DNA of 63,182 bases from Treponemataceae bacterium (lineage in GTDB: Bacteria > Spirochaetota > Spirochaetia > Treponematales > Treponemataceae), in the NCBI GenBank assembly GCA_024680915.1, contig JAILBN010000029.1, positions 1 through 63,182 on the forward strand, read 5' to 3'. The notes under the pieces are model-generated. The model ran no database searches. It worked only from the letters and a program-made list of their open reading frames with translations, and was not told the origin of the DNA. A program made the position numbers and the translations under genes. Shown here piece by piece: positions 43,863 through 58,320 of this stretch. Position 1 is the first letter of the stretch. Every line of letters starts with the position of its first letter.

Positions 43863-44213
43863 ATGGATAACTTAAAGCTCGTCAACGTCGAGGAAGCAAT
43901 GGCCCGTGTCGATAATGACAAAGAACTATATAACGATCTTCTTACAATGTTCTTCGAAGACCCTCAATTCAAACCGGAAGACCTGGAAAAGCTCCTTGCG
44001 GAGAATAAGATTCAGGAAGCCGAGAAATTGGTGCACCTGCTTAAAGGTATAGCCGGAACCTTGGGAGCGGAAAAGCTTTTCAGTGCCTGCCAGAGCCTGG
44101 ATGACATCCTTAAGGGTAAGACAGAGGGCGACATTCCTGCAGGAAAGGAAGCCGTAAATACCCTCTTTCTAGAGACAAGAGAAGAACTGAAAAAAGTCCA
44201 GGAATCACTATAG
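43863..44213 (+). CDS. HPt-domain phosphotransfer protein
   Basis: 116 residues, essentially one histidine phosphotransfer domain: a four-helix bundle with phospho-acceptor His58 in VHLLKGIAGTLGA. Such proteins shuttle phosphate between receivers. No kinase gene is adjacent, but hybrid proteins with receivers (CheA-REC, REC-cyclase) lie within 15 kb and are possible partners (inference). A strong ribosome site (GAAGGAGG) precedes the ATG. A long hairpin (44221-44274) follows the stop. Confidence 0.9.
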   Translation: MDNLKLVNVEEAMARVDNDKELYNDLLTMFFEDPQFKPEDLEKLLAENKIQEAEKLVHLLKGIAGTLGAEKLFSACQSLDDILKGKTEGDIPAGKEAVNTLFLETREELKKVQESL

Positions 44214-47043: not shown

Positions 47044-48843
47044 TTATTCTCCCGATGAGATAATCATCTTATGAAGGTTCTCCAACAAGTTCGCGGCTTC
47101 CTTCAATTTCTGCGCCGTATTGTTCACCGTATCGGTGGATGCGGAGAAATTCTCTATTCCGGAAGAAATCTGCCGGACAGTGGCCACTATCTGGTCGAAA
47201 GCCACAGACTGCTGGCTGATTATATCCTTGATCTGATTCGCCGACTCAACGGTAATCTCAGAAGAACTCTGTATGTCATTGAATTTTTCCTTAAGCTTTT
47301 CAGAAAGCTCCAGACCTTCCCGGATTTTCTCCGTTCCAGATTCGGAAGTTATTATCAGATTATCAGAAGAATGCTGGATTTCTGTGATTTTCTCCTTGAT
47401 CTGATCAACGGAGTTCGTTATACCTGCCGCCAGACGGCGTACCTCGTTGGCGACGATATGGAAATTCCTTCCGCTCTCGCCTGCGCTGGAAGCCTCCAAC
47501 TCGGCATTAAAGGCGATTATACGGGTCTGATCCGCAATATCGTTTATGATTTTTACAATATCCCAGATGCTTCCTATTTTCTCGCCCAGCTCTCGTATTC
47601 CTGAGATAGTGGAGACATTAGCCTCGGTAATATCCGCCATCTTATCAAGATTCGACTGCAAAGTCTTGAATCCAGATTTTACGTTTTTCTCCGTAACCTC
47701 CGCTACGTCCGTCACATCCGCAATCTTCTCCACTATATTACGGGTCTGGCGGTCCGTATCCTCCATTGTGGCAAGGATTTCCTTCACTCCTGTGGACTGC
47801 TCCAGCGCTGTGGAAGCCGTAGCCTGGGAGATTTCAGAAAGCTCCCCGATAGGAAGGACCATGGTTTTACCAATCTTTCGTATATCATCCAAGATTGAGC
47901 GGAAAAGCAGAACTATCTTATTCAGAAGATGCATGTTGTATGAGACTTCATTCTCAAAATCAGTAGCTACCAAATCTACCGTAAAAATATCGTTCTTGAT
48001 TATATGAAGCATAGAGTCCTGCATCTTGTCAGAGGAGGCAAGGATACTTCTCGAGAAGAAATAAACGGAAAGGCTTCCTATAAGGATATTCACGATCAGG
48101 ACAACCCCTATACGCATGAACTGGGTCTCACAGAAGCCATATTCACCATTCACTGCGGGCAGGAAGCCGGATTCTGCAGGAACATTGTTGTAATAGTACA
48201 CATAGAAAAGAGCCATGGTAAGGACAATGCCCCAGATGACAGGAATCGAGACATAGAAGGAGACAGATTTCTGGTATGAAGTGCCGAAATAGTACCTTTC
48301 GTTAAGGATTTTCTCATCGATTCCATCCTCCACAAGGCGGCAGGCATACTTGGTGCAGATTGAGCGGCTGTAGGAAAGAGCCAAAAGAGAGGCGACATAG
48401 GAACCCAGGAACATGGCCAAAAGGTTCACCCCGTTGAGGACGAAGCTCATATTGTATAATAAATGATAGGTGGCCGTCAAAAACAAGGCGCTGGCAACGA
48501 AGAAAGCAGCGGTCTCTATTTGTTTTCTGGCCGGCATTTTATGGATAAGCTTGAAAAGCTCAGTCCTTTCCTCGGTATCCATACCCTTTGAAAGATATTT
48601 CTCAATCTTATTGGATACTTTACCCATAACGAAATGATTTATTATAGGCGAGATGCAGAATTGTGCCACTACTATCAAGATAAGGATGCTGACCACCACA
48701 AAGTAATGAGTCTGCAGATCAAGATTCAGAATGAATATTGAATAGATCAGCATGACAATTCCACAGCATATATTGGGCAAGAGGCTTGCCCTTAGGATTT
48801 CTTTCTCAAATGGCAGGTTTCCGTTTTTTTCCTTCGTTTTCAT
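47044..48843 (-). CDS. Membrane chemoreceptor-like protein with unusual signalling tip (receptor B)
   Basis: 599 residues: six or so membrane helices in three hairpins (~22-75, 110-165, 190-275) with no large outside domain, then a long coiled coil (~300-599). The signalling tip reads IIAFNAELEASSAGESG, unlike the [15 protein letters not shown] of the other receptors in this window. It shares the tip and architecture with the preceding gene, with which it overlaps (TAATG), so the two are recent-looking paralogues, perhaps working as a pair. Last gene of the che-cyclase cluster, so it probably signals to that CheA (inference). Confidence 0.85.
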   Translation of the reverse strand: MKTKEKNGNLPFEKEILRASLLPNICCGIVMLIYSIFILNLDLQTHYFVVVSILILIVVAQFCISPIINHFVMGKVSNKIEKYLSKGMDTEERTELFKLIHKMPARKQIETAAFFVASALFLTATYHLLYNMSFVLNGVNLLAMFLGSYVASLLALSYSRSICTKYACRLVEDGIDEKILNERYYFGTSYQKSVSFYVSIPVIWGIVLTMALFYVYYYNNVPAESGFLPAVNGEYGFCETQFMRIGVVLIVNILIGSLSVYFFSRSILASSDKMQDSMLHIIKNDIFTVDLVATDFENEVSYNMHLLNKIVLLFRSILDDIRKIGKTMVLPIGELSEISQATASTALEQSTGVKEILATMEDTDRQTRNIVEKIADVTDVAEVTEKNVKSGFKTLQSNLDKMADITEANVSTISGIRELGEKIGSIWDIVKIINDIADQTRIIAFNAELEASSAGESGRNFHIVANEVRRLAAGITNSVDQIKEKITEIQHSSDNLIITSESGTEKIREGLELSEKLKEKFNDIQSSSEITVESANQIKDIISQQSVAFDQIVATVRQISSGIENFSASTDTVNNTAQKLKEAANLLENLHKMIISSGE

Positions 48844-50627
48844 TATTCCACCTCTTTTTCATCTTCTGGCTGCAATTTCTTGAGACTGTCGGAAATAGTA
48901 CAAAGATTCTGTGCAGAGTCACTTATTTTCTGAGTCGAACTGGAGAAGGACTCGGTCGTCTGAGCTATCTGCTGCAAGGTTATTACGATCTGAGCAAAAG
49001 ATGCTGTCTGCTGCTCAATGATCTTTTTTATATCCTCTGAAGCATAATCCATGCTTTCCGAGCTTTTCTTGAGCTCTTCGAAACGTAGGTTGAGCGCATT
49101 TATAATCTTATTTCCGTCAAGAATCTTTTTGGTTCCGTTCTGGGAGGCAAGCAAAAGCTCATCAGAAGAATGCTGAGTCTCTATAATACGCTTCCGTATC
49201 TCTTCCGTCGACTGGATGGTACTGTTTGTAAGACGGCGGATCTCGTTGGCCACGAGGGAGAAGTTCTCCCCTACCTCTCCTGCACTGGAAGCCTCCAGCT
49301 CCGCATTAAAGGCGATTATATTGGTCTGGTCCGCTATGGAGTTTATGATTCTTGCTATATCATTGATACCGGAGATTTTTTCCGTAAGGTTCTTTATCCC
49401 TTCCACAGTAATATCATTGGCAGCCCTGATTTCGTCAAGCTTATTCATATTCTGCTTAAGGATATCGAATCCATCCACGATGTTTTCCGTCGTCTTTTTG
49501 GCGACGATGGAGACCTCACCGATTTTTTCAGATATATTCTTCGAGAGAGCGTCCGTTTCCTTCATGGCGGAAAGAAGCTCCTTGATTCCAGAGTTCTGCT
49601 CCAAGGAAGTAACTGCAGTCTCCCGGGAGATAACAGAAAGCTCGTTGCTGGACTCGATTACATCCATACTGATTTTCTGGCTCTCCTTAAGGATTTTCTG
49701 AAGAATCTCCACGATAGTGTTTATAAGGTATACATTGTACATGAACTCATTGGAAAGATCGGTTTTCTCGAATTCCACCTTGTGCAGGTTCTCTTTGTTC
49801 ATTCCGTTCAACTGATGCCGCATATTATTGATGGACAGCATCATCTTGTTGAAAATCAACCTTACGAACACCAGATAGAAAGCGGCACATTCCACACCGA
49901 TGACTATAAGATGCCTGAACATGATGCCTCCTCCCATACCAGAGCCAGCAGCGCATTTTGCAAGGACATAAAAAAGCAGGCCTATAAAAACGATGGGAAG
50001 AAAAATATTGATGACAACCATTACCTTGGAGTTTGTTCCGAAGCAATGCTTTTTTTCTATCTCTGCTTTCGAGACTCCCTTCTCTACGATCCTGCATGCA
50101 TAATCGGAACAAGCCTTTTGAATTGGGCTGGTCATCAAATAGACAGCGCAGAAATAGGCGCCCATGAAAATTGTCAATCCGCATAAATAAACAGAAGCAG
50201 GATCAAGATACCCGTAGTTGGAGATTATCGATATCCATACCGCACCACAAGCAAAGAAAATAAGAAAAGTGACGAGGCCCATTGTCATGGGCAGATTCAA
50301 TATCTGCTTCAACAACTTCGTCCTTTCTCTTGCCGTAGATTCATAAATGTCTATCTCAGCCATATTCTCACCGACAGGAGCGCAGGCAAACAAACTTCCC
50401 ACCCATATAAGCCCGAAATAAAGCAAAAGACAGAAGAAAACTCCAGAAGCAATAGTAGAAAGCAACCCCGAGACCGAAACATTACCCAACAAGATGACCA
50501 GGATAATAGTGGTGACCCAGATAATCGCACTGGGAATAAAAAGGCGGGAGAAAATCTCCTTGGCCAAGCTTTTTCCACTCAAGGAATCACTGCTTCTCTT
50601 TTTTTCCGTAAAATCTGACAGCTTCAT
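48843..50627 (-). CDS. Membrane chemoreceptor-like protein with unusual signalling tip (receptor A)
   Basis: 594 residues from the ATG at 50627 (GAGG six bases upstream; the longer frame to 50663 has no such site). Six membrane helices (~35-280) and a cytoplasmic coiled coil with tip IIAFNAELEASSAGEVG and NFSLVANEIRRLT. The lack of a large periplasmic domain suggests sensing within the membrane or through a partner (inference). It lies 70 bases behind the cyclase gene, a gap with AATATACTGA-type inverted repeats but no clear promoter. Its stop overlaps receptor B. Confidence 0.85.
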   Translation of the reverse strand: MKLSDFTEKKRSSDSLSGKSLAKEIFSRLFIPSAIIWVTTIILVILLGNVSVSGLLSTIASGVFFCLLLYFGLIWVGSLFACAPVGENMAEIDIYESTARERTKLLKQILNLPMTMGLVTFLIFFACGAVWISIISNYGYLDPASVYLCGLTIFMGAYFCAVYLMTSPIQKACSDYACRIVEKGVSKAEIEKKHCFGTNSKVMVVINIFLPIVFIGLLFYVLAKCAAGSGMGGGIMFRHLIVIGVECAAFYLVFVRLIFNKMMLSINNMRHQLNGMNKENLHKVEFEKTDLSNEFMYNVYLINTIVEILQKILKESQKISMDVIESSNELSVISRETAVTSLEQNSGIKELLSAMKETDALSKNISEKIGEVSIVAKKTTENIVDGFDILKQNMNKLDEIRAANDITVEGIKNLTEKISGINDIARIINSIADQTNIIAFNAELEASSAGEVGENFSLVANEIRRLTNSTIQSTEEIRKRIIETQHSSDELLLASQNGTKKILDGNKIINALNLRFEELKKSSESMDYASEDIKKIIEQQTASFAQIVITLQQIAQTTESFSSSTQKISDSAQNLCTISDSLKKLQPEDEKEVE

Positions 50628-50697
50628 ATATACCTCACTTTCTGTGATATTCTTGCCCTTCATCTATTTTATTATCGGCTGATAATATACTGATTCT

Positions 50698-52566
50698 TTA
50701 TTTTGAAGTAAGAGCGACCGCACCATCCCAATTCTCTGGTCTTTTCAAAGCGAACTCGGAACAACGGCCGAGCATGATTTTCGCAGCCTTATCCTCCGGC
50801 ATGATCTCAAGAGCCTTCTCAAAATAAGGAGCCGCAAGACTGAAAGTTCCTTCGCTATAGGACTTCAAGCCTTTCTCGTAGATCTGCATGTAATCTTGGG
50901 GAAGAGCTTTCTCATCCACCCTGTAAATCTCCACGCTCTCTTTTCTTCCCATTACTTTTACAGAATCCAGGTGCATGAAGTTTATGGAGGAGTCCAGCTC
51001 GTTTTTCACCGATTGTGAAATCAGTATTTTCGCGCCGTACAGCTTAGTAAGTCCTTCCAGACGGGAGGCAAGGTTGACCGTATCGCCGATCACGGTGTAA
51101 TCAGTCTTATCCTCACTTCCTATATTGCCCACGATAACATCCCCGTAGTGGATTCCTATTCCTATGTCCAGCTTTATTCCTTCAGGGAACTTCAGCTGAC
51201 CATACTGAATCTGGTTCAACTGGGAATACATCTCTATGGCGGCGCTTACGGCTCTTTTAGCATTATCCATATAGCTGATAGGTGCCCCGAAGAGAACCAT
51301 CACCGCATCCCCTATGAATTTGTCCACGGTTCCGCCGTACTTCTTCACTATATTCACCATGGTCGTAAAATAGGTGTTCAAAAAATAAACGACATCCTCC
51401 GGAGTGTTCTCTTCGCTTATCGAGGTGAAATTCCTTATGTCGCTCATCAGTATTACGACATTCCTCTTTTCGTTGTTGTTTGTCTGCTGATTGCTGGTGC
51501 TTGAGCTGAGCATATCGTCGATTACCTGGGGGGGAACGAATTTCAAGAAAGCTGAGCGAAGCTTGCTTTCCATCTGGGTTACTGCCGAATACTGGACCGA
51601 CTGCTGCAGGACGTAAGCCAGAGGCAGCAATATATAGTCTATTGAGGACTGAACCTTGTAGGTGAAAAGCTTCTTTTTTGAAGAAGCCAGATGCAAGGTC
51701 CCCACGAACTCATTATCGGTGCTGAGCACGAAATCATAGTAGGACTTCAGCTTGTCGCAGCCTCCGGCCTCTTTCTCAGTCACCATGCCGGAAAACTCTT
51801 TCTGCTCATAGGTGATAGTATGATTTTTCTTTGCCTGATGTTCGTAAGATGTCTTGCATATATTCCAGAATTCATCGGAAAGCCCAGCTTCCAGGATATC
51901 GGTTCCAGCTTTGTAAACCTTTGCGGTCTGACTGTCCAGAATAAGCGTTATAGCATCGTAATCACAGGCAGTGGAGATTATGGAGAAAAGCTCCTTTACA
52001 AGTGAATCTAAGTCCTTTACATAGGAATACAACCTAGTCACATTGTTGGTCATCTGAAGGAAGGCCCCGGACCTGTCCATTGCGCTTACAATCCAGGATG
52101 TCATCTTCTCCTCATCTGATATTCCGGCGGCTTTTGAGGATTTGCCAGAAGCAGGCTGCTCCTCCTCAAAAAACGAATCTGCGTCAATGTAGTCACCGGC
52201 CATAAGCTCTTCCACTGCATCCAGCAGACCATCTATTTTTTCGGCGGATATGGAAAGCGTCTTGTTAGCCTTTGTCGCAGTATTCCAAAAATCAAAGATA
52301 GTCTCGTCCGTCGAGATCAAAATAAAAGGAATGGAACTTTTCGTCGAGCCCTTTTTCAGGATTTCACAAAGCTGCATCCCATCTATTTTAGGAAGGCTCC
52401 TGTCAGCGATAATCAAAGCCGGAGCTTCCCTTACGATTTTCCTCAAAAGAGAAAGACCGTCAGAGAAGGCATGGACATCATAGCCCTTGTCACTCAGCTC
52501 CTTGCAAAGGATTTTCGAAAGTATACGCGACTGCTCTGCAATGTAAACCTTTCTTTTCTCACTCAT
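50698..52566 (-). CDS. Response-regulator adenylate cyclase (REC-GAF-class III cyclase-TPR)
   Basis: 622 residues. REC domain at ~5-120 (phospho-acceptor D55 in IIADRSLPKIDG), a GAF-like region (~165-325), a class III cyclase domain (~365-550) and a short TPR end (~560-605). All cyclase residues are present: metal ligands D376 and D420, adenine-selecting K416 and D495, transition-state N498 and R502 (NLASRLE). It should make cAMP from ATP. The gene start overlaps cheA by eight bases, so the CheA of this cluster is the obvious phosphate donor (inference). Regulation of cAMP by a chemosensory array is the proposed output. Confidence 0.92.
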   Translation of the reverse strand: MSEKRKVYIAEQSRILSKILCKELSDKGYDVHAFSDGLSLLRKIVREAPALIIADRSLPKIDGMQLCEILKKGSTKSSIPFILISTDETIFDFWNTATKANKTLSISAEKIDGLLDAVEELMAGDYIDADSFFEEEQPASGKSSKAAGISDEEKMTSWIVSAMDRSGAFLQMTNNVTRLYSYVKDLDSLVKELFSIISTACDYDAITLILDSQTAKVYKAGTDILEAGLSDEFWNICKTSYEHQAKKNHTITYEQKEFSGMVTEKEAGGCDKLKSYYDFVLSTDNEFVGTLHLASSKKKLFTYKVQSSIDYILLPLAYVLQQSVQYSAVTQMESKLRSAFLKFVPPQVIDDMLSSSTSNQQTNNNEKRNVVILMSDIRNFTSISEENTPEDVVYFLNTYFTTMVNIVKKYGGTVDKFIGDAVMVLFGAPISYMDNAKRAVSAAIEMYSQLNQIQYGQLKFPEGIKLDIGIGIHYGDVIVGNIGSEDKTDYTVIGDTVNLASRLEGLTKLYGAKILISQSVKNELDSSINFMHLDSVKVMGRKESVEIYRVDEKALPQDYMQIYEKGLKSYSEGTFSLAAPYFEKALEIMPEDKAAKIMLGRCSEFALKRPENWDGAVALTSK

Positions 52567-54673
52567 GCAGCAGCTCCCTCACTTTAGCTGTCAGACTCTC
52601 ACGTTCAAAATCAGACTTGACTATATAGCCCTGGCCCCCGAGATTCTTCACCCGGTCAAGGGTGTCGCTCTCGAAGACGGAGGAAACCATAATAACTGGA
52701 ATGTCCTTAAGCTCCTCCTTGTGGCGCATGTTATGAAGAAGAACGAAACCGTCCATCCTGGGCATTTTTACGTCTGTCACCACAAGATCAAACTTGTGCT
52801 GCTTCATTTTCTCAAGGGCGTCTATTCCGTCCACAGCGGTGGCAACATTGTAATTCTCTGCCTCCAGGATAATCTGCTCTATATGACGGGTAGCATGGGA
52901 ATCGTCCACCACAAGTATCGAATGGATTTTCGGCATCTTGTGAACTTCAAGATTCTTCGCGTCGTATACGTTTATAACCTTGAAGCGCTTCATAGTATCG
53001 GGAATATTCAGGACAGGGATTATCCTGTAATTATCATCGAAGACGACACCCTGCAGGGCATTGAAATCCTTCAGGAGCGGAGGAACAGGCTTTATCACCA
53101 CAGTGCCATAATGCAGGACCTTGTCCACTATGACGCTGATTTTACGGTTCAAGTACTCAAGTACTACAACCGAGAATTCCTTCCTTAGATTAGTGTTTTT
53201 CGCGGAATTCGGATTGATTATGTCGAAGTCAAAAACCGGGATAAGCTCATTGTGAACATTAAGGACAGGTCCATGCTGCAGCTGAAGGAAATCGTCTTTT
53301 TCTACGGTGATTATCTCCTTGATGTAGTGGGACAGAATAAGATATGAATTGTCCGACACTGAGACAAAAAGTCCGTCCTGGGTCGCAAGGGAAGCCGGCA
53401 GAGAAAGCTCGAAGGTAGTTCCTTTGTCAAGCTCGGAATAAACAGAAATCTTTCCCTTAAGCTTGTCCATTTCTGTCCGGACCACATCAAGTCCTATTCC
53501 TCGTCCCGAAAGCTCAGTCTGAACATCCTTAGTAGAGAAACCTGAGACAAAAATATACTGCAGGAGCTCGTTCTTATCCGCATTCATTATCTCATTTATA
53601 CGTTCGGGGAAAAGCTTAAAGGCCTTGGTCCTTATTTTCTCATAATCTATTCCGTGACCGTCATCCTTTACGGTCACGAAAATTCTGTTGGAGACCTGGC
53701 TTACAGAGACAGAGATCCTGCCCTTCTCAGGTTTCCCCAGCTTTGCTCTCACGTCAGGAGCTTCTATACCATGATCAATGGAGTTGCGGACAAGATGGAC
53801 AAGTATGGCAGGAAGCTTCTCAAGGATGAACTTATCTATCGTTATTTCTGACTGGGGGATATCGAACTCAATGTTCTTGCCGTTCTTCAAGGCCTCTGAG
53901 ACCACAGAGCGGCGGATGGGGCGAAGTATCATATCAAAGGGGAGCATCCTAAGCGAGATAATACTTTTTTGAATATCCACACTTTGTTTTTCCAGAACAG
54001 AGATATTCTCGGAAAGCTCCTGATAAGCCTGGAATTCTGATGAATTCCCGCTCTTCTTCAAGAACTCGATCTCTTTCCTTAGCTTAATCTGCCGCATTAT
54101 AAGCTTGTCCAGGGACTGAAGTATGGAGTCCACCTCAGAAATCTGTATTTTTATAGTCTGGGTGTCATGGAAAAGATCTGAAGATTCCGAGGAAGCATCC
54201 TCACTTGGTGACGATGCATCACCTTCTGCCTGCTCCCTATCAGCATTTGTCACACCTTTCGATAGGAAATCGGTGGTAAAATCCTCATCCTCCATAACCT
54301 TGTCGATATTTTTTATAATCTCATCATACTCCTGAAAATTTCCGTCAGAGCCATTCTCAATTTCATCTATTACTTTGTTCAGCACAGTCAGGACACCCAG
54401 CAAAAGCTGTATGACCTTATTAGAGATTTCCATCTGATTGCCCTGGATATTCTTGAATATGTTCTCCAGATTGTTCATCACCTTCTCTATCTGGTTGTAA
54501 TCCATCATCCTGGAAGAGCCTTTCAGCGTATGAAGAAGGCGGAGGATCTCCTCAAGATAGCCGAAATTCCTTTTTTCCTTTATCGCCAGAACCGCAATAT
54601 CATCTAAAGAATCCAGAATTTCACGGGCTTCTACAATGTAATCTGTTATGAACATGGACTTATCAAGATTCAT
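52559..54673 (-). CDS. cheA: CheA histidine kinase with C-terminal receiver domain
   Basis: 704 residues: P1 phosphotransfer domain (phospho-acceptor H48 in LLHTLKGSSRM), a linker with no obvious P2, P3 dimerisation helices (~175-255), P4 ATPase (HLVRNSIDHGIEAPD, VKDDGHGIDYEKI, SGRGIGLDVV), P5 CheW-like domain (~435-575) and a fused receiver (~580-704, phospho-acceptor D634 in VVTDVKMPRMDG, K686). A receiver-tailed CheA without P2 is typical of alternative chemosensory systems such as FrzE, rather than flagellar CheA. The ATG directly follows the cheR stop, with AGGAGG. The receiver may act as phosphate sink or pass phosphate on to the cyclase (inference). Confidence 0.94.
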   Translation of the reverse strand: MNLDKSMFITDYIVEAREILDSLDDIAVLAIKEKRNFGYLEEILRLLHTLKGSSRMMDYNQIEKVMNNLENIFKNIQGNQMEISNKVIQLLLGVLTVLNKVIDEIENGSDGNFQEYDEIIKNIDKVMEDEDFTTDFLSKGVTNADREQAEGDASSPSEDASSESSDLFHDTQTIKIQISEVDSILQSLDKLIMRQIKLRKEIEFLKKSGNSSEFQAYQELSENISVLEKQSVDIQKSIISLRMLPFDMILRPIRRSVVSEALKNGKNIEFDIPQSEITIDKFILEKLPAILVHLVRNSIDHGIEAPDVRAKLGKPEKGRISVSVSQVSNRIFVTVKDDGHGIDYEKIRTKAFKLFPERINEIMNADKNELLQYIFVSGFSTKDVQTELSGRGIGLDVVRTEMDKLKGKISVYSELDKGTTFELSLPASLATQDGLFVSVSDNSYLILSHYIKEIITVEKDDFLQLQHGPVLNVHNELIPVFDFDIINPNSAKNTNLRKEFSVVVLEYLNRKISVIVDKVLHYGTVVIKPVPPLLKDFNALQGVVFDDNYRIIPVLNIPDTMKRFKVINVYDAKNLEVHKMPKIHSILVVDDSHATRHIEQIILEAENYNVATAVDGIDALEKMKQHKFDLVVTDVKMPRMDGFVLLHNMRHKEELKDIPVIMVSSVFESDTLDRVKNLGGQGYIVKSDFERESLTAKVRELLHE

Positions 54674-56122
54674 CTACTGCCTCCTGGTATTATTGGAAAA
54701 AGTTTCGCACAAAGAATGAATATAAGACGGACTGAAAGAATCCAAGGTGAAATCGTACAAGTTTTTTTTCTCCGGTTCTTCCAGCAATTTCTTGCATTTT
54801 GAGAAGCAGACAAGAGCCTGTTCTTCTTTGGCCAGATCGCGAAGAATCATACCATGATAAAAGAATGCCGGCCAAAAATCAGGAGACAGGGTTTCCGCCG
54901 AGGAGAAAAAGGTCTCCGCCGCCGCCCTGTTGTCCGCATGATATTCGATATAGCCCTGCAAAAAGAAGGAATACTTTTTGTAGTTCGCTCCACTTACAGC
55001 CCGGGCAATTGTCCTTGCCTTAGTGAAATTTCCCCTATTGATTTCCTCGCATATATCCTCGAAGGTTTTCTTTATATCAGATTCAGTATCTTTTTCAGAA
55101 GCCTCAGCTGAATCAGTCTTTTTCCAGGAATCTCTCAAGTATTCAGACTCAGCCGGCCTTTCGTATCTCTCTTTATCATCCTGCTTGAGATTCCGGGCTT
55201 TCTCAACCTCCCGGCGCAGATTCTCCTTCTTTATTTTTTCCTGCTTCTGCTTGTCTTCCTCGATTCTTTTTTGTGTACGCCTTTCTCCTTCAGAAACTTT
55301 TTCCCCGCCAGTCCAGCCTTTGATAAAGAAGTACACCTGCTCCCAGTTCCTTTTATGAAGGTTTTGCGGAATAATCGTACTGTCTATAGAACCAATCTCG
55401 TTCATGGAAAAGAAAAGATAACCGCCGTTCTTAAGCCTGTCCTCTATTTTTTCAGTGACAAGTATTCTTGTTTTTTTATCAAAATAGATGAAGACGTTCC
55501 TCATGAAGATGACGTCCATATTATCGAAAAAGGGAAAATTCGTATCCTGAATAAGATTGAACTTGAAGATATTAATGTGGCTTAGAAAATCACGATCAAA
55601 GATTATTTGAGTCTCGGTCCTTTTGGAATATGGCTCCAAAAGCTCGTGGTACTTCTGTCCGTCCTTACGCAGTGAGAACAAGGACCACCTTCCCTCCCGC
55701 AAGGTCTCCAGGGCGTTATCGTCAATATCAGAGGCGTAAAGAGTAAGGTTCACCCCCATAGAAAGAGCCAGAGCCAGGATAGAGACAGGCTCCTCACCTG
55801 TAGAGCAGCAGCAGGTCCATATGGACAGATTCTTTCCTACGAACTTGGGGAAAAGCTGATTTTTCAAAAAGTCGAACTGCTTTTCCTCCCGGAAAAAGTA
55901 AGTCTCGTTTACCGTCACAAGGTTTATTACCTCATCCAGCTCCTCACTGCCGGGACTCAGGTCCTCGCAATATTGGGCAGGACTGATTCCCCTTGACGCG
56001 GCTTTTTTTTTCAAAAAAGAGACAAGAGACGGAATCTGGGATTTTGCGACAGATATACCGGAGAAAGAGAGGATTTTTGAGCTGATCTGGCCGATAACAT
56101 CATCTATCTCATCGGTTCTCAT
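54674..56122 (-). CDS. cheR: CheR receptor methyltransferase with C-terminal TPR
   Basis: 482 residues. It methylates glutamates of receptors using SAM. The N-terminal helical domain (~1-75) and SAM domain (~80-270) show ETYFFREEKQFDFL, WTCCCSTGEEPVSILALAL (SAM loop), LYASDIDDNALE and VIFMRNVFIYFDKKT. A charged, low-complexity stretch (~275-360, many K/E/R) is followed by a TPR-like helical region (~385-460). The ATG at 56122 overlaps the cheB stop (ATGA); an upstream extension to 56197 lies inside cheB and is ignored. Confidence 0.92.
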   Translation of the reverse strand: MRTDEIDDVIGQISSKILSFSGISVAKSQIPSLVSFLKKKAASRGISPAQYCEDLSPGSEELDEVINLVTVNETYFFREEKQFDFLKNQLFPKFVGKNLSIWTCCCSTGEEPVSILALALSMGVNLTLYASDIDDNALETLREGRWSLFSLRKDGQKYHELLEPYSKRTETQIIFDRDFLSHINIFKFNLIQDTNFPFFDNMDVIFMRNVFIYFDKKTRILVTEKIEDRLKNGGYLFFSMNEIGSIDSTIIPQNLHKRNWEQVYFFIKGWTGGEKVSEGERRTQKRIEEDKQKQEKIKKENLRREVEKARNLKQDDKERYERPAESEYLRDSWKKTDSAEASEKDTESDIKKTFEDICEEINRGNFTKARTIARAVSGANYKKYSFFLQGYIEYHADNRAAAETFFSSAETLSPDFWPAFFYHGMILRDLAKEEQALVCFSKCKKLLEEPEKKNLYDFTLDSFSPSYIHSLCETFSNNTRRQ

Positions 56123-57204
56123 GCGATATTCCCCCTTCTTCTTCCCACAAGGCTCCATAATCTTTCCGCTATCTGTCCGAGGGGGAGCTCCTCGCATACG
56201 CTGCCGTTCTCCACAGCGGCTTTCGGCATTCCGTAAATAACGCTGGACTCCTCATCCTGGGCTATTGTGTAGGCGCCCAGCTTCTTAAGACGCAGGCATT
56301 CCTTGGCTCCGTCGCTTCCCATTCCTGTAAGGATAACCGCTATGCAGTTACCGCCCATGATATTTGCGGCACTCTCGAACATCTTATCGACAGCGGGTCT
56401 CAGGAAATTCACAGGAGCCTCATAATTCAAGGAGATATCGAAACCGCCCTCCATATCCGGGTCAAAAGTAAGATGGGCATCAGAAGGAGCAAAATAAACG
56501 TGACCCGCGAGAGGTTTTTTATGATCCTCGGCAAGATGGACAGGAAGGGAGGTTTCTTTTCCCAGCCACATTATAAGGTTTTTGTCAAAAAACGAGTCGA
56601 TATGCTGGGTTATGAATATGGGCAGAGGGAAGCCTGGTCCTATCCCCTTCAAAAGCTTTTGTATGGCAGCAGGACCTCCTGTGGAAACTCCCACAAGTAC
56701 AGCCATGAAATTCCTCTTCGCATAGTCTTTCGATACATCCTTCAAAAAGGTGGAGATGCTTCCATCAGCGCTTATTGTCTGCGATACAGAGGAGTTTGCC
56801 CCAAGATGGTTGTTGAAAAGCACGTCGGATTTCACATCGTAGACCTGCTGCTCCAAATAGAAGGCGTACTCCTCTTCCTTGCGGGCAGAGAAATTCATAA
56901 AGTCCGGCATCTCTATGAAGCGGATATTCTTTACGGCAGGAAGGGCTTTTGCCTTTTTACTGTAAAAGAAAATCGAAGGAATATTAGCGGGAATATAAAA
57001 ATCGATGAGAGCCTTTTCTTCTCCATTCTCAAAAAGATCATTCCCTGCGATTATGAAGTCGGGATTAAGACTTGCCATTGAATCCTTCAGCTCAGGAAAA
57101 GAAACAGCCTCCCCAATCCATTTAAGTTTTCTTGTTTTTACTATTATTTCTTTTAATACAGAGCGAACCACTGCCGAAGAATCGGCGACAAAAATCCTGA
57201 TCAT
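56119..57204 (-). CDS. cheB: CheB receptor methylesterase with degenerate receiver
   Basis: 361 residues. The C-terminal methylesterase (~165-355) keeps its triad: S174 (VGVSTGGPAA), H201 (ITQHID) and D298 (TGMGSDGA). The N-terminal receiver-like domain (~1-115) begins properly (IRIFVADSSAVVRSVL), but where the phospho-acceptor Asp is expected the sequence reads IIAGND, giving Gly54; D56 is two residues too late. It may not be activated by phosphorylation. It removes methyl groups from the cluster's receptors. Overlaps the CheW-like gene (ATGA) and cheR. Confidence 0.9.
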   Translation of the reverse strand: MIRIFVADSSAVVRSVLKEIIVKTRKLKWIGEAVSFPELKDSMASLNPDFIIAGNDLFENGEEKALIDFYIPANIPSIFFYSKKAKALPAVKNIRFIEMPDFMNFSARKEEEYAFYLEQQVYDVKSDVLFNNHLGANSSVSQTISADGSISTFLKDVSKDYAKRNFMAVLVGVSTGGPAAIQKLLKGIGPGFPLPIFITQHIDSFFDKNLIMWLGKETSLPVHLAEDHKKPLAGHVYFAPSDAHLTFDPDMEGGFDISLNYEAPVNFLRPAVDKMFESAANIMGGNCIAVILTGMGSDGAKECLRLKKLGAYTIAQDEESSVIYGMPKAAVENGSVCEELPLGQIAERLWSLVGRRRGNIA

Positions 57205-57632
57205 AAAGACACCGGTGAGCTAGAAAGCACACATTCCATAATTTTTTTTATATCGATCAAATATTTGATCCTTTTATTCTCGAAAAGACAAGCAAGCAGC
57301 CCATTTTTTTTCAGACGCTCGGCATAAAGCTCCGGAAACAGAGAAAAATCATTGAGACTAATGGAGCAGACCTTACATTCCTGGGCTGTCACCACAGAAA
57401 GAGGCATATCATCCTCCCCTTTCAGCATTATCATAGTCTTTACATTGGCTTCCCGAGGTAATTGAGCGAAAATTGCCGCAATCTCATCAAAATCAAAAAT
57501 CCCTGAAGTCTCGTCATGAAGCATACTACTATCCAGGTCGCTTATACTTACCGCTGAAATAACGTATTCACCTGGAATAAGGAAATCAATTTTTGGATAG
57601 GAAATACAAATGAAGTTTTCAGATCGATGCAA
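57201..57632 (-). CDS. Second CheW-like coupling protein
   Basis: 143 residues, a divergent CheW fold: SENFICISYPKIDFLIPGEYVISAV at the start and YLIDIKKIMECVL at the end are its clearest elements. It may couple receptors to CheA or regulate that coupling. The start is TTG at 57632, inferred because no ATG or GTG precedes the fold, AGGA lies about nine bases upstream, and the frame overlaps the cheW stop by 14 bases. The end overlaps cheB. Confidence 0.72.
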   Translation of the reverse strand: MHRSENFICISYPKIDFLIPGEYVISAVSISDLDSSMLHDETSGIFDFDEIAAIFAQLPREANVKTMIMLKGEDDMPLSVVTAQECKVCSISLNDFSLFPELYAERLKKNGLLACLFENKRIKYLIDIKKIMECVLSSSPVSL

Positions 57633-58125
57633 TTTCTTTTCCTACTTTTTCAATGACAGCCTGCACTTTCAGTACCCAGACATCCTGACCTTCTACCTTG
57701 AGAGTTCCCTCATAGAATTCCGAGGTCTCTGCTTCCGAGAAACGGATTACAGCATTTTCAGACGCGGTGAAGAATTCCTTCACATCGGTGATTCTGAAGC
57801 AAGTGTGGCTTTCATCATTAAGCACGATAAAAAGGAATGATTTTTGAGATTCTTTTCCCTCCAAGTCAGCAGGATCAATTACGACATAAGGATCACCGTA
57901 GCGGTTCAAAACCCCGTTTATATAGGAAGGAAGGAAAGGAAGAGGGAAAACAGAGGCATCCCGGAGAATTTCTTTTACGTCTCCGGAGGGAATCGCATAC
58001 AGATTTTTTCCATCTGTCTGATTTCCGATTGTAAAAATAAGCCAAGTAGCCTTTTTTTCAATCTGCTGGCTTTCTTTTTTCTCGTGCGCATCACTTTTTA
58101 TTAATGAGATAATCTCTTCTGACAT
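57619..58125 (-). CDS. cheW: CheW coupling protein
   Basis: 168 residues. CheW-like SH3-type domain (~28-160): WLIFTIGNQTDGKNLYAIPS, EILRDASVFPLPFLPSYINGVLNRYGDPYVVIDP (standard CheW core) and VWVLKVQAVIEKV at the end. It links receptors to CheA. First gene of the che-cyclase-receptor cluster. The ATG lies eight bases behind a TATAAT box with no ribosome site, so the operon's mRNA is predicted to be leaderless or nearly so. Confidence 0.9.
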   Translation of the reverse strand: MSEEIISLIKSDAHEKKESQQIEKKATWLIFTIGNQTDGKNLYAIPSGDVKEILRDASVFPLPFLPSYINGVLNRYGDPYVVIDPADLEGKESQKSFLFIVLNDESHTCFRITDVKEFFTASENAVIRFSEAETSEFYEGTLKVEGQDVWVLKVQAVIEKVGKEIASI

Positions 58126-58240: not shown

Positions 58241-58314
58241 GGGTTCATAGCTCATCTGGATAGAGCAACTGCCTTCTAAGCAGTAGGTAGGGGGTTCGAG
58301 TCCCTCTGGACCCG
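58241..58314 (+). tRNA. tRNA-Arg (anticodon TCT)
   Basis: A 74-base cloverleaf: acceptor GGGTTCA/TGGACCC, D-stem GCTC/GAGC, anticodon stem ACTGC/GCAGT with loop CTTCTAA, T-arm GGGGG-TTCGAGT-CCCTC, discriminator G. CCA is not encoded. It is flanked by its own promoter and terminator. Confidence 0.97.
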
Positions 58315-58320
58315 CTTTTT

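Follow-up and report, generated by a model that had tools for sequence, protein, structure and literature searches.

An eight-gene operon at positions 47044 to 58125 of contig JAILBN010000029.1 was identified as a non-flagellar chemosensory system in which a class III adenylate cyclase is the built-in, predicted cyclic AMP (cAMP) output, a reading that is well supported by sequence comparison because the linkage between the cyclase and CheA is conserved and all class III catalytic residues are kept. The whole stretch of DNA analysed (63,182 nucleotides; the window) comes from a Treponemataceae assembly of 3.15 Mb in 134 contigs (GCA_024680915.1). The receiver fold at the N terminus of the cyclase was found to be a pseudo-receiver, and the signal probably reaches the enzyme by contact and not by direct phosphorylation. 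On balance we lean towards an array of the alternative cellular function (ACF) type, in which cAMP would be set via CheA's own receiver contacting the cyclase pseudo-receiver. The features of the operon, in reading order, are as follows.

57619 to 58125, minus strand: CheW, 168 aa, operon gene 1 (Pfam CheW, E = 3.9e-10), its first place kept in relatives.
57201 to 57632, minus strand: 143-aa protein with a TTG start and no family match, its position kept in most kinase-type operons.
56119 to 57204, minus strand: CheB methylesterase with S174, H201 and D298 present (Pfam CheB, E = 2.4e-57).
54674 to 56197, minus strand: CheR methyltransferase with a C-terminal tail of ~200 aa (Pfam CheR, E = 6.8e-32).
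52559 to 54673, minus strand: CheA with P1, P3, P4, P5 and a C-terminal receiver (Pfam Hpt, HATPase, CheW and REC; alignments; residues).
50698 to 52566, minus strand: cyclase, the predicted output enzyme (Pfam REC and Guanylate_cyc; catalytic residues; AlphaFold model; Foldseek).
52195 to 52566, minus strand: cyclase pseudo-receiver with E11/Q12, D55, S85 and no Lys after strand 5 (alignment and model).
48843 to 50663, minus strand: receptor 1, 606 aa, with the tip NAELEASSAGE (Pfam MCPsignal, E = 1.2e-22; hydropathy).
47044 to 48843, minus strand: receptor 2, 599 aa, with the same plan as receptor 1 (Pfam MCPsignal, E = 2.7e-25; hydropathy).

Searches with the cyclase as query against 145 Treponemataceae genomes returned 70 proteins of the receiver-GAF-cyclase type, every one of which adjoins a gene of the CheA family. 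In 52 of the 70 cases the direct neighbour is a CheA that was recovered independently with a CheA query, and the other 18 adjoin a shortened CheA. Conversely, 52 of the 54 kinase CheAs of this type adjoin a cyclase; the two that seemed to be without one are not true exceptions, as both stop at contig ends, which leaves 52 of 52 evaluable cases. Most operons keep the order cheW, small gene, cheB, cheR, cheA and cyclase, followed by two or four receptors. A preliminary description of this DNA, made from its letters only, had recognised the eight genes as one unit and proposed a search for the same order in other Treponema genomes; all of the open reading frames were found, and the order recurs in dozens of genomes. 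An assembly error or chance neighbours can be ruled out by this identical order. The comparison drew on data from metagenome-assembled genomes (MAGs), and those with the operon include rumen and gut Treponema as well as termite-gut Treponema. No full-length cyclase match was obtained in genomes of genera g15 and g20 in the 145-genome search. The same operon is carried by several other spirochaete families, in some with the receptors upstream, and three members of the phylum (L217, L218 and L219) have two tandem cyclases after CheA, the members of each pair being mutually diverged. The cyclase of a genome of the same genus, G061 (L060:5310-7358), is 682 aa in length, ~60 residues longer, apparently because of an insertion between the receiver and the GAF-like domain. 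Outside the spirochaetes, an alphaproteobacterial MAG (L115:2-10867) carries, side by side, an MCP, CheR- and CheB-like genes, CheA and a class III cyclase; this cyclase is without a recognisable receiver and may be an independent case.

The enzyme has the complete set of residues of a class III (IIIb) adenylate cyclase, as had been claimed for it: the two metal-binding Asp residues (D376 and D420), the substrate Lys and Thr for base selection (K416 and T491), and the transition-state Asn and Arg (N498 and R502). Its core is intact, with catalytic residues of the K/T pattern invariant in 26 of 26 aligned homologues. The Lys/Thr pattern is that of class IIIb adenylate cyclases, and ATP is the expected substrate. 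In the AlphaFold model (mean predicted local distance difference test score, pLDDT, 80) a receiver fold is followed by a GAF-like domain, a long helix, the cyclase and a helical tail, and the protein can be divided into the pseudo-receiver (residues 1-125), the GAF-like domain (~186-300), a signalling helix (303-341), the cyclase domain (366-550) and a TPR-like tail (553-622). Foldseek found the nearest solved folds among class III cyclases, such as phytochrome-cyclase fusions, OaPAC, Cya2, P. aeruginosa CyaB and CyaC. Because the fold model, on which the GAF assignment rests, places a GAF-like domain and a signalling helix ahead of the cyclase, it might be supposed that a small ligand at the GAF-like domain controls the enzyme and that the che genes are merely co-expressed with it or use cAMP as feedback, and GAF-regulated class III cyclases are known in the cyanobacterial CyaB1/B2. 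However, both the receiver fold retained at the cyclase N terminus and the invariable pairing of the cyclase gene with that of CheA across family and phylum are hard to square with co-expression alone, and control by a ligand in this manner is considered very unlikely.

The active-site quintet of a receiver is made up of two acidic residues, an Asp, a Ser or Thr, and a Lys. A receiver fold without at least one of the five is a pseudo-receiver (PMC12632262). In the cyclase receiver the acidic pair is E11/Q12, D55 is the Asp that aligns with D57 of CheY, S85 is present, and the Lys at the end of strand 5 is absent. Two of the five residues are missing from a predicted receiver fold, which places the domain among the pseudo-receivers and outside the receivers whose complete quintet marks them as controlled by phosphorylation. 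It had been described as a good receiver on account of D55; the Asp is indeed there, but the acidic pair and the Lys do not bear this out. A complete quintet was found in none of 43 aligned Treponemataceae cyclases, although in the most divergent of these receivers the position of the Lys is alignment-dependent. At the Asp position, Asn occurs in 22 sequences, Asp in 13, Tyr in 4, Ser in 2 and other residues in 2, such that the phospho-Asp has been replaced in 30 of 43, by N, Y, S, H or E. Within the nearest clade (n = 11), the second acidic position is occupied by P, S, Q, A or D, without constraint, and the equivalent of D55 is retained in 9 sequences and is S or E in 2. Among cyclases from other families (n = 10), the Asp and Lys are invariant and the full quintet is present in 9; the cyclase receivers of termite-gut Treponema also look intact. 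As the other families keep an intact receiver and the Treponemataceae cyclases form one clade (99% support in the Shimodaira–Hasegawa-like approximate likelihood ratio test, SH-aLRT, in a tree made by a quick method), the intact cyclase receiver was probably ancestral and disappeared at or close to the root of the Treponemataceae cyclases.

These alignments bear on the mechanism first proposed, in which CheA phosphorylates D55 of the cyclase directly and thereby switches cAMP synthesis. The presence of D55 and its retention in most of the nearest clade speak for it, and direct transfer was probably the ancestral arrangement, because other spirochaete families keep intact cyclase receivers in the same operon. 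In the present protein, however, the Mg2+-binding pair is E/Q and the Lys is absent, the second acidic position drifts even among the closest homologues, and the Asp itself is replaced in 2 of the nearest 11 and in most of the family. From the alignment of the 43 family members, direct phosphotransfer to D55 was set aside as unlikely to be the main mechanism, and the model as a whole is rated distinctly unlikely. What survives of the proposal that receptor signals set cAMP through CheA phosphotransfer is the cyclase-output operon with its invariant linkage; the transfer from CheA to the cyclase receiver is the part left unsupported.

CheA, by comparison, has the parts of a histidine kinase, namely P1 with H48, P3, a P4 ATPase domain with its N, G1, F and G2 boxes, and P5. 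A P2 (CheY-binding) domain between P1 and P3 was not detected by Pfam. The quintet of its C-terminal receiver is complete (D590/D591, D634, a Ser and K686). In all 43 operons holding degenerate cyclase receivers, the second acidic residue, the Asp and the Lys of the CheA receiver are invariant, and the Ser/Thr is kept in 25 of 25 kinase-type CheAs, in all 25 of which the receiver is intact. The N-terminal receiver of CheB is degenerate in the clade of this operon and intact in the clade with four receptors, and, as judged from the aligned residues, the operon has a single phospho-acceptor that is intact, D634 of the CheA receiver.

In the contact arrangement that we favour, the two membrane receptors, CheW and CheA would form an array, likely kept apart from the flagellar array, in which CheR and CheB would methylate and demethylate the receptors and the state of the receptors would set the autophosphorylation of CheA at H48. 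The phosphoryl group would then move from H48 to CheA's own D634, a transfer within the protein that is suggested because Pfam detected no P2. The cyclase itself would not be phosphorylated; its pseudo-receiver would most likely dock on the array formed with CheA, the CheA receiver being the probable site, and contact would relay the state of that receiver through the GAF-like domain and along the long helix to the dimer of the cyclase. This would be in effect a receiver/pseudo-receiver pair of the PleD type split over two proteins. In PleD from Caulobacter, cyclase dimerisation is governed by a pseudo-receiver that takes its signal from a phosphorylated receiver (PMC12632262), but there both domains are in one protein with another type of cyclase, whereas here the receivers are on two proteins and their contact is a prediction. 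Several points weigh against the arrangement. That the pseudo-receiver docks on the receiver of CheA is guessed from the domains that have remained intact, and the modelled GAF-like domain could be what really controls the cyclase. Close homologues mostly retain D55 (9 of 11, this one included), and weak phosphorylation is sometimes possible in pseudo-receivers in which the Asp is still present (PMC12632262). Finally, cyclase activity and the preference for ATP are predictions from residues.

A sister clade of 18 operons encodes a 'CheA' of 494-696 aa that has neither the phospho-His nor the ATPase domain, with the cyclase still adjacent and intact. In the alignment and a model, a P1-like helical bundle and a P3-like hairpin are followed by a CheW-like P5 barrel and then the receiver, and there is no space for P4. 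A wrong start or a missed domain was dismissed as the cause, given that P3 runs straight to P5 in 18 of 18 sequences and the one model agrees. The tree made by the quick method nests these operons with four kinase-bearing ones, which is compatible with a single loss of the kinase. Two of them (L203 and L213) are also without cheB and cheR and consist only of a receptor, CheW, the shortened CheA and the cyclase. A clade that lost the kinase core yet kept receptor, CheW, P3, P5 and receiver of CheA, and cyclase, in two cases even without the methylation enzymes, is what would be expected if phosphotransfer were irrelevant to the output, the array coupling to the cyclase conformationally (through CheW/P5 or receptor packing) and the CheA receiver being no more than a phosphate sink or feedback element. 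This is thought unlikely, since CheA in the present operon keeps H48, all of its ATPase boxes and a complete receiver. Moreover, the second acidic residue, the Asp and the Lys of the receiver are kept in 18 of 18 kinase-less CheAs, an argument that phosphorylation still matters, with the flagellar CheA as its possible source. With a CheW-like domain plus a receiver, the kinase-less CheA resembles CheV in layout, and the flagellar CheA could therefore phosphorylate it. It is tentatively suggested that the treponeme array, once a phosphorelay, came in steps to control the cyclase by contact, the receiver chemistry of the cyclase being lost first and the CheA kinase then being lost in one clade, leaving receptor-CheW-(P3-P5-REC)-cyclase complexes that contain no kinase and would nevertheless set cAMP, either purely allosterically or fed by the flagellar CheA through the CheV-like receiver.

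The eight open reading frames are read from 58125 down to 47044, in the order cheW, the 143-aa gene, cheB, cheR, cheA with its receiver, the receiver-GAF-like-cyclase-TPR-like gene, receptor 1 and receptor 2, and their ends overlap or abut throughout the gene pairs checked, in keeping with the earlier statement that most junctions overlap. The two genes at the start overlap by 14 bp, the 143-aa gene and cheB by 4 bp, cheA and the cyclase gene by 8 bp and the two receptor genes by 1 bp; cheR and cheA are adjacent. The overlap of cheB and cheR is 79 bp as called and would be 4 bp if CheR began at the ATG near 56122, which is probably the real start because CheR homologues align only from about residue 26-33. 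The CheR tail gave no Pfam match to TPR, a domain commonly present in the CheR of ACF pathways. CheY, CheX, CheZ and CheC are absent from the operon, as had been noted before. By contrast, the 143-aa protein, previously taken for a second CheW-like protein, was matched by neither Pfam nor NCBIfam, and a profile comparison with the CheW next to it found no similarity (0.3% probability in hhalign); one distant positional counterpart gave a sub-threshold CheW match (E = 0.0013), and its identity as a second CheW is unsupported. Scans for promoters and terminators found about as many sites as in shuffled sequence. Between the operon start and an upstream 511-aa gene, which by eye we take to be GH30-like, lies a tRNA-Arg (TCT) at 58241-58315 on the plus strand, opposite to the operon. 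A few kb from the operon, a stand-alone Hpt-domain protein of 116 aa with no recognised partner is encoded at 43863-44213 on the plus strand.

Both receptors have several N-terminal membrane segments, no large periplasmic domain by hydropathy and an MCP signalling domain. Their tip, NAELEAS, is also found in the operons of other spirochaete families, whereas the other readable receptors of the genome have the tips NAAIEAA or NAAIESA, a difference that suggests insulation of the operon array from the flagellar array. Only one other CheA is encoded in the genome, on contig C10, where it is clustered with CheW, CheR, CheB and a single-domain CheY; as this is a CheA/CheY cluster of the flagellar type, the initial view of the operon as a second chemosensory system holds. 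Candidate cAMP effectors are encoded elsewhere in the genome by L035 and L036 (two cyclic nucleotide-binding (cNMP) domains each), L037 (HATPase_c_2 plus cNMP) and L038, in all of which the phosphate-binding cassette motif, G-E-x-A-(L/F/I)...R-S-A-(S/T), is intact by eye. In L037 (L037:559-1887) an anti-sigma-type HATPase_c_2 domain is followed by the cNMP-binding domain with its good phosphate-binding motif, and the protein is a possible cAMP-gated partner-switch regulator.

The kind of system is already known, because receiver-fused cyclases in ACF clusters (PMC3447774) and the linkage of Pil-Chp to CyaB in Pseudomonas (PMC12632253) have been described. The 2012 survey lists 'mononucleotidyl cyclase' among the receiver-fused outputs of ACF chemosensory clusters and names no spirochaetes in its text (PMC3447774). 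As in the ACF-type pathways among the classes of Wuichet and Zhulin, CheA, CheW, CheB, CheR and receptors lie here in one cluster, a complete che operon without CheY or CheZ, and the output is a receiver-fused multidomain enzyme without the motor-type CheY, CheX, CheZ or CheC; unlike in them, the fused receiver is degenerate, the only intact acceptor is on CheA, and the kinase has been lost in a sister clade. With Pil-Chp/CyaB of P. aeruginosa the operon would share a chemosensory array that raises cAMP via a class III cyclase, and CyaB is among the nearest solved cyclase domains. CyaB lies outside its chemosensory operon and is activated via the separate regulator PilG, whereas the present cyclase is inside the operon and has its own receiver fold; with no PilG/PilH-like gene in the operon, it does not belong to that system. 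The Wsp system also has an operon-encoded cyclase with an N-terminal receiver as its chemosensory output, but WspR is a phosphorylated GGDEF diguanylate cyclase, whereas the present enzyme belongs to class III and its receiver is degenerate. Descriptions of a phylum-wide cyclase-linked operon in spirochaetes were not found in the open-licence literature, which is weak evidence of novelty, nor were descriptions of the loss of receiver chemistry in treponeme cyclases or of the kinase-less version.

How chemoreceptor arrays control non-flagellar outputs is mostly unknown, as is the way in which pseudo-receivers are themselves controlled, and the two meet in one conserved operon, which, judged from its genes, would join Pseudomonas as a second, independent example of cAMP under chemosensory control. 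The spirochaetes offer a natural series, from an intact cyclase receiver in other families, through a degenerate receiver with an active CheA in this genome, to a degenerate receiver with a kinase-less CheA in the sister clade. Comparison of the three would show whether the array drives the enzyme without phosphorylating it.

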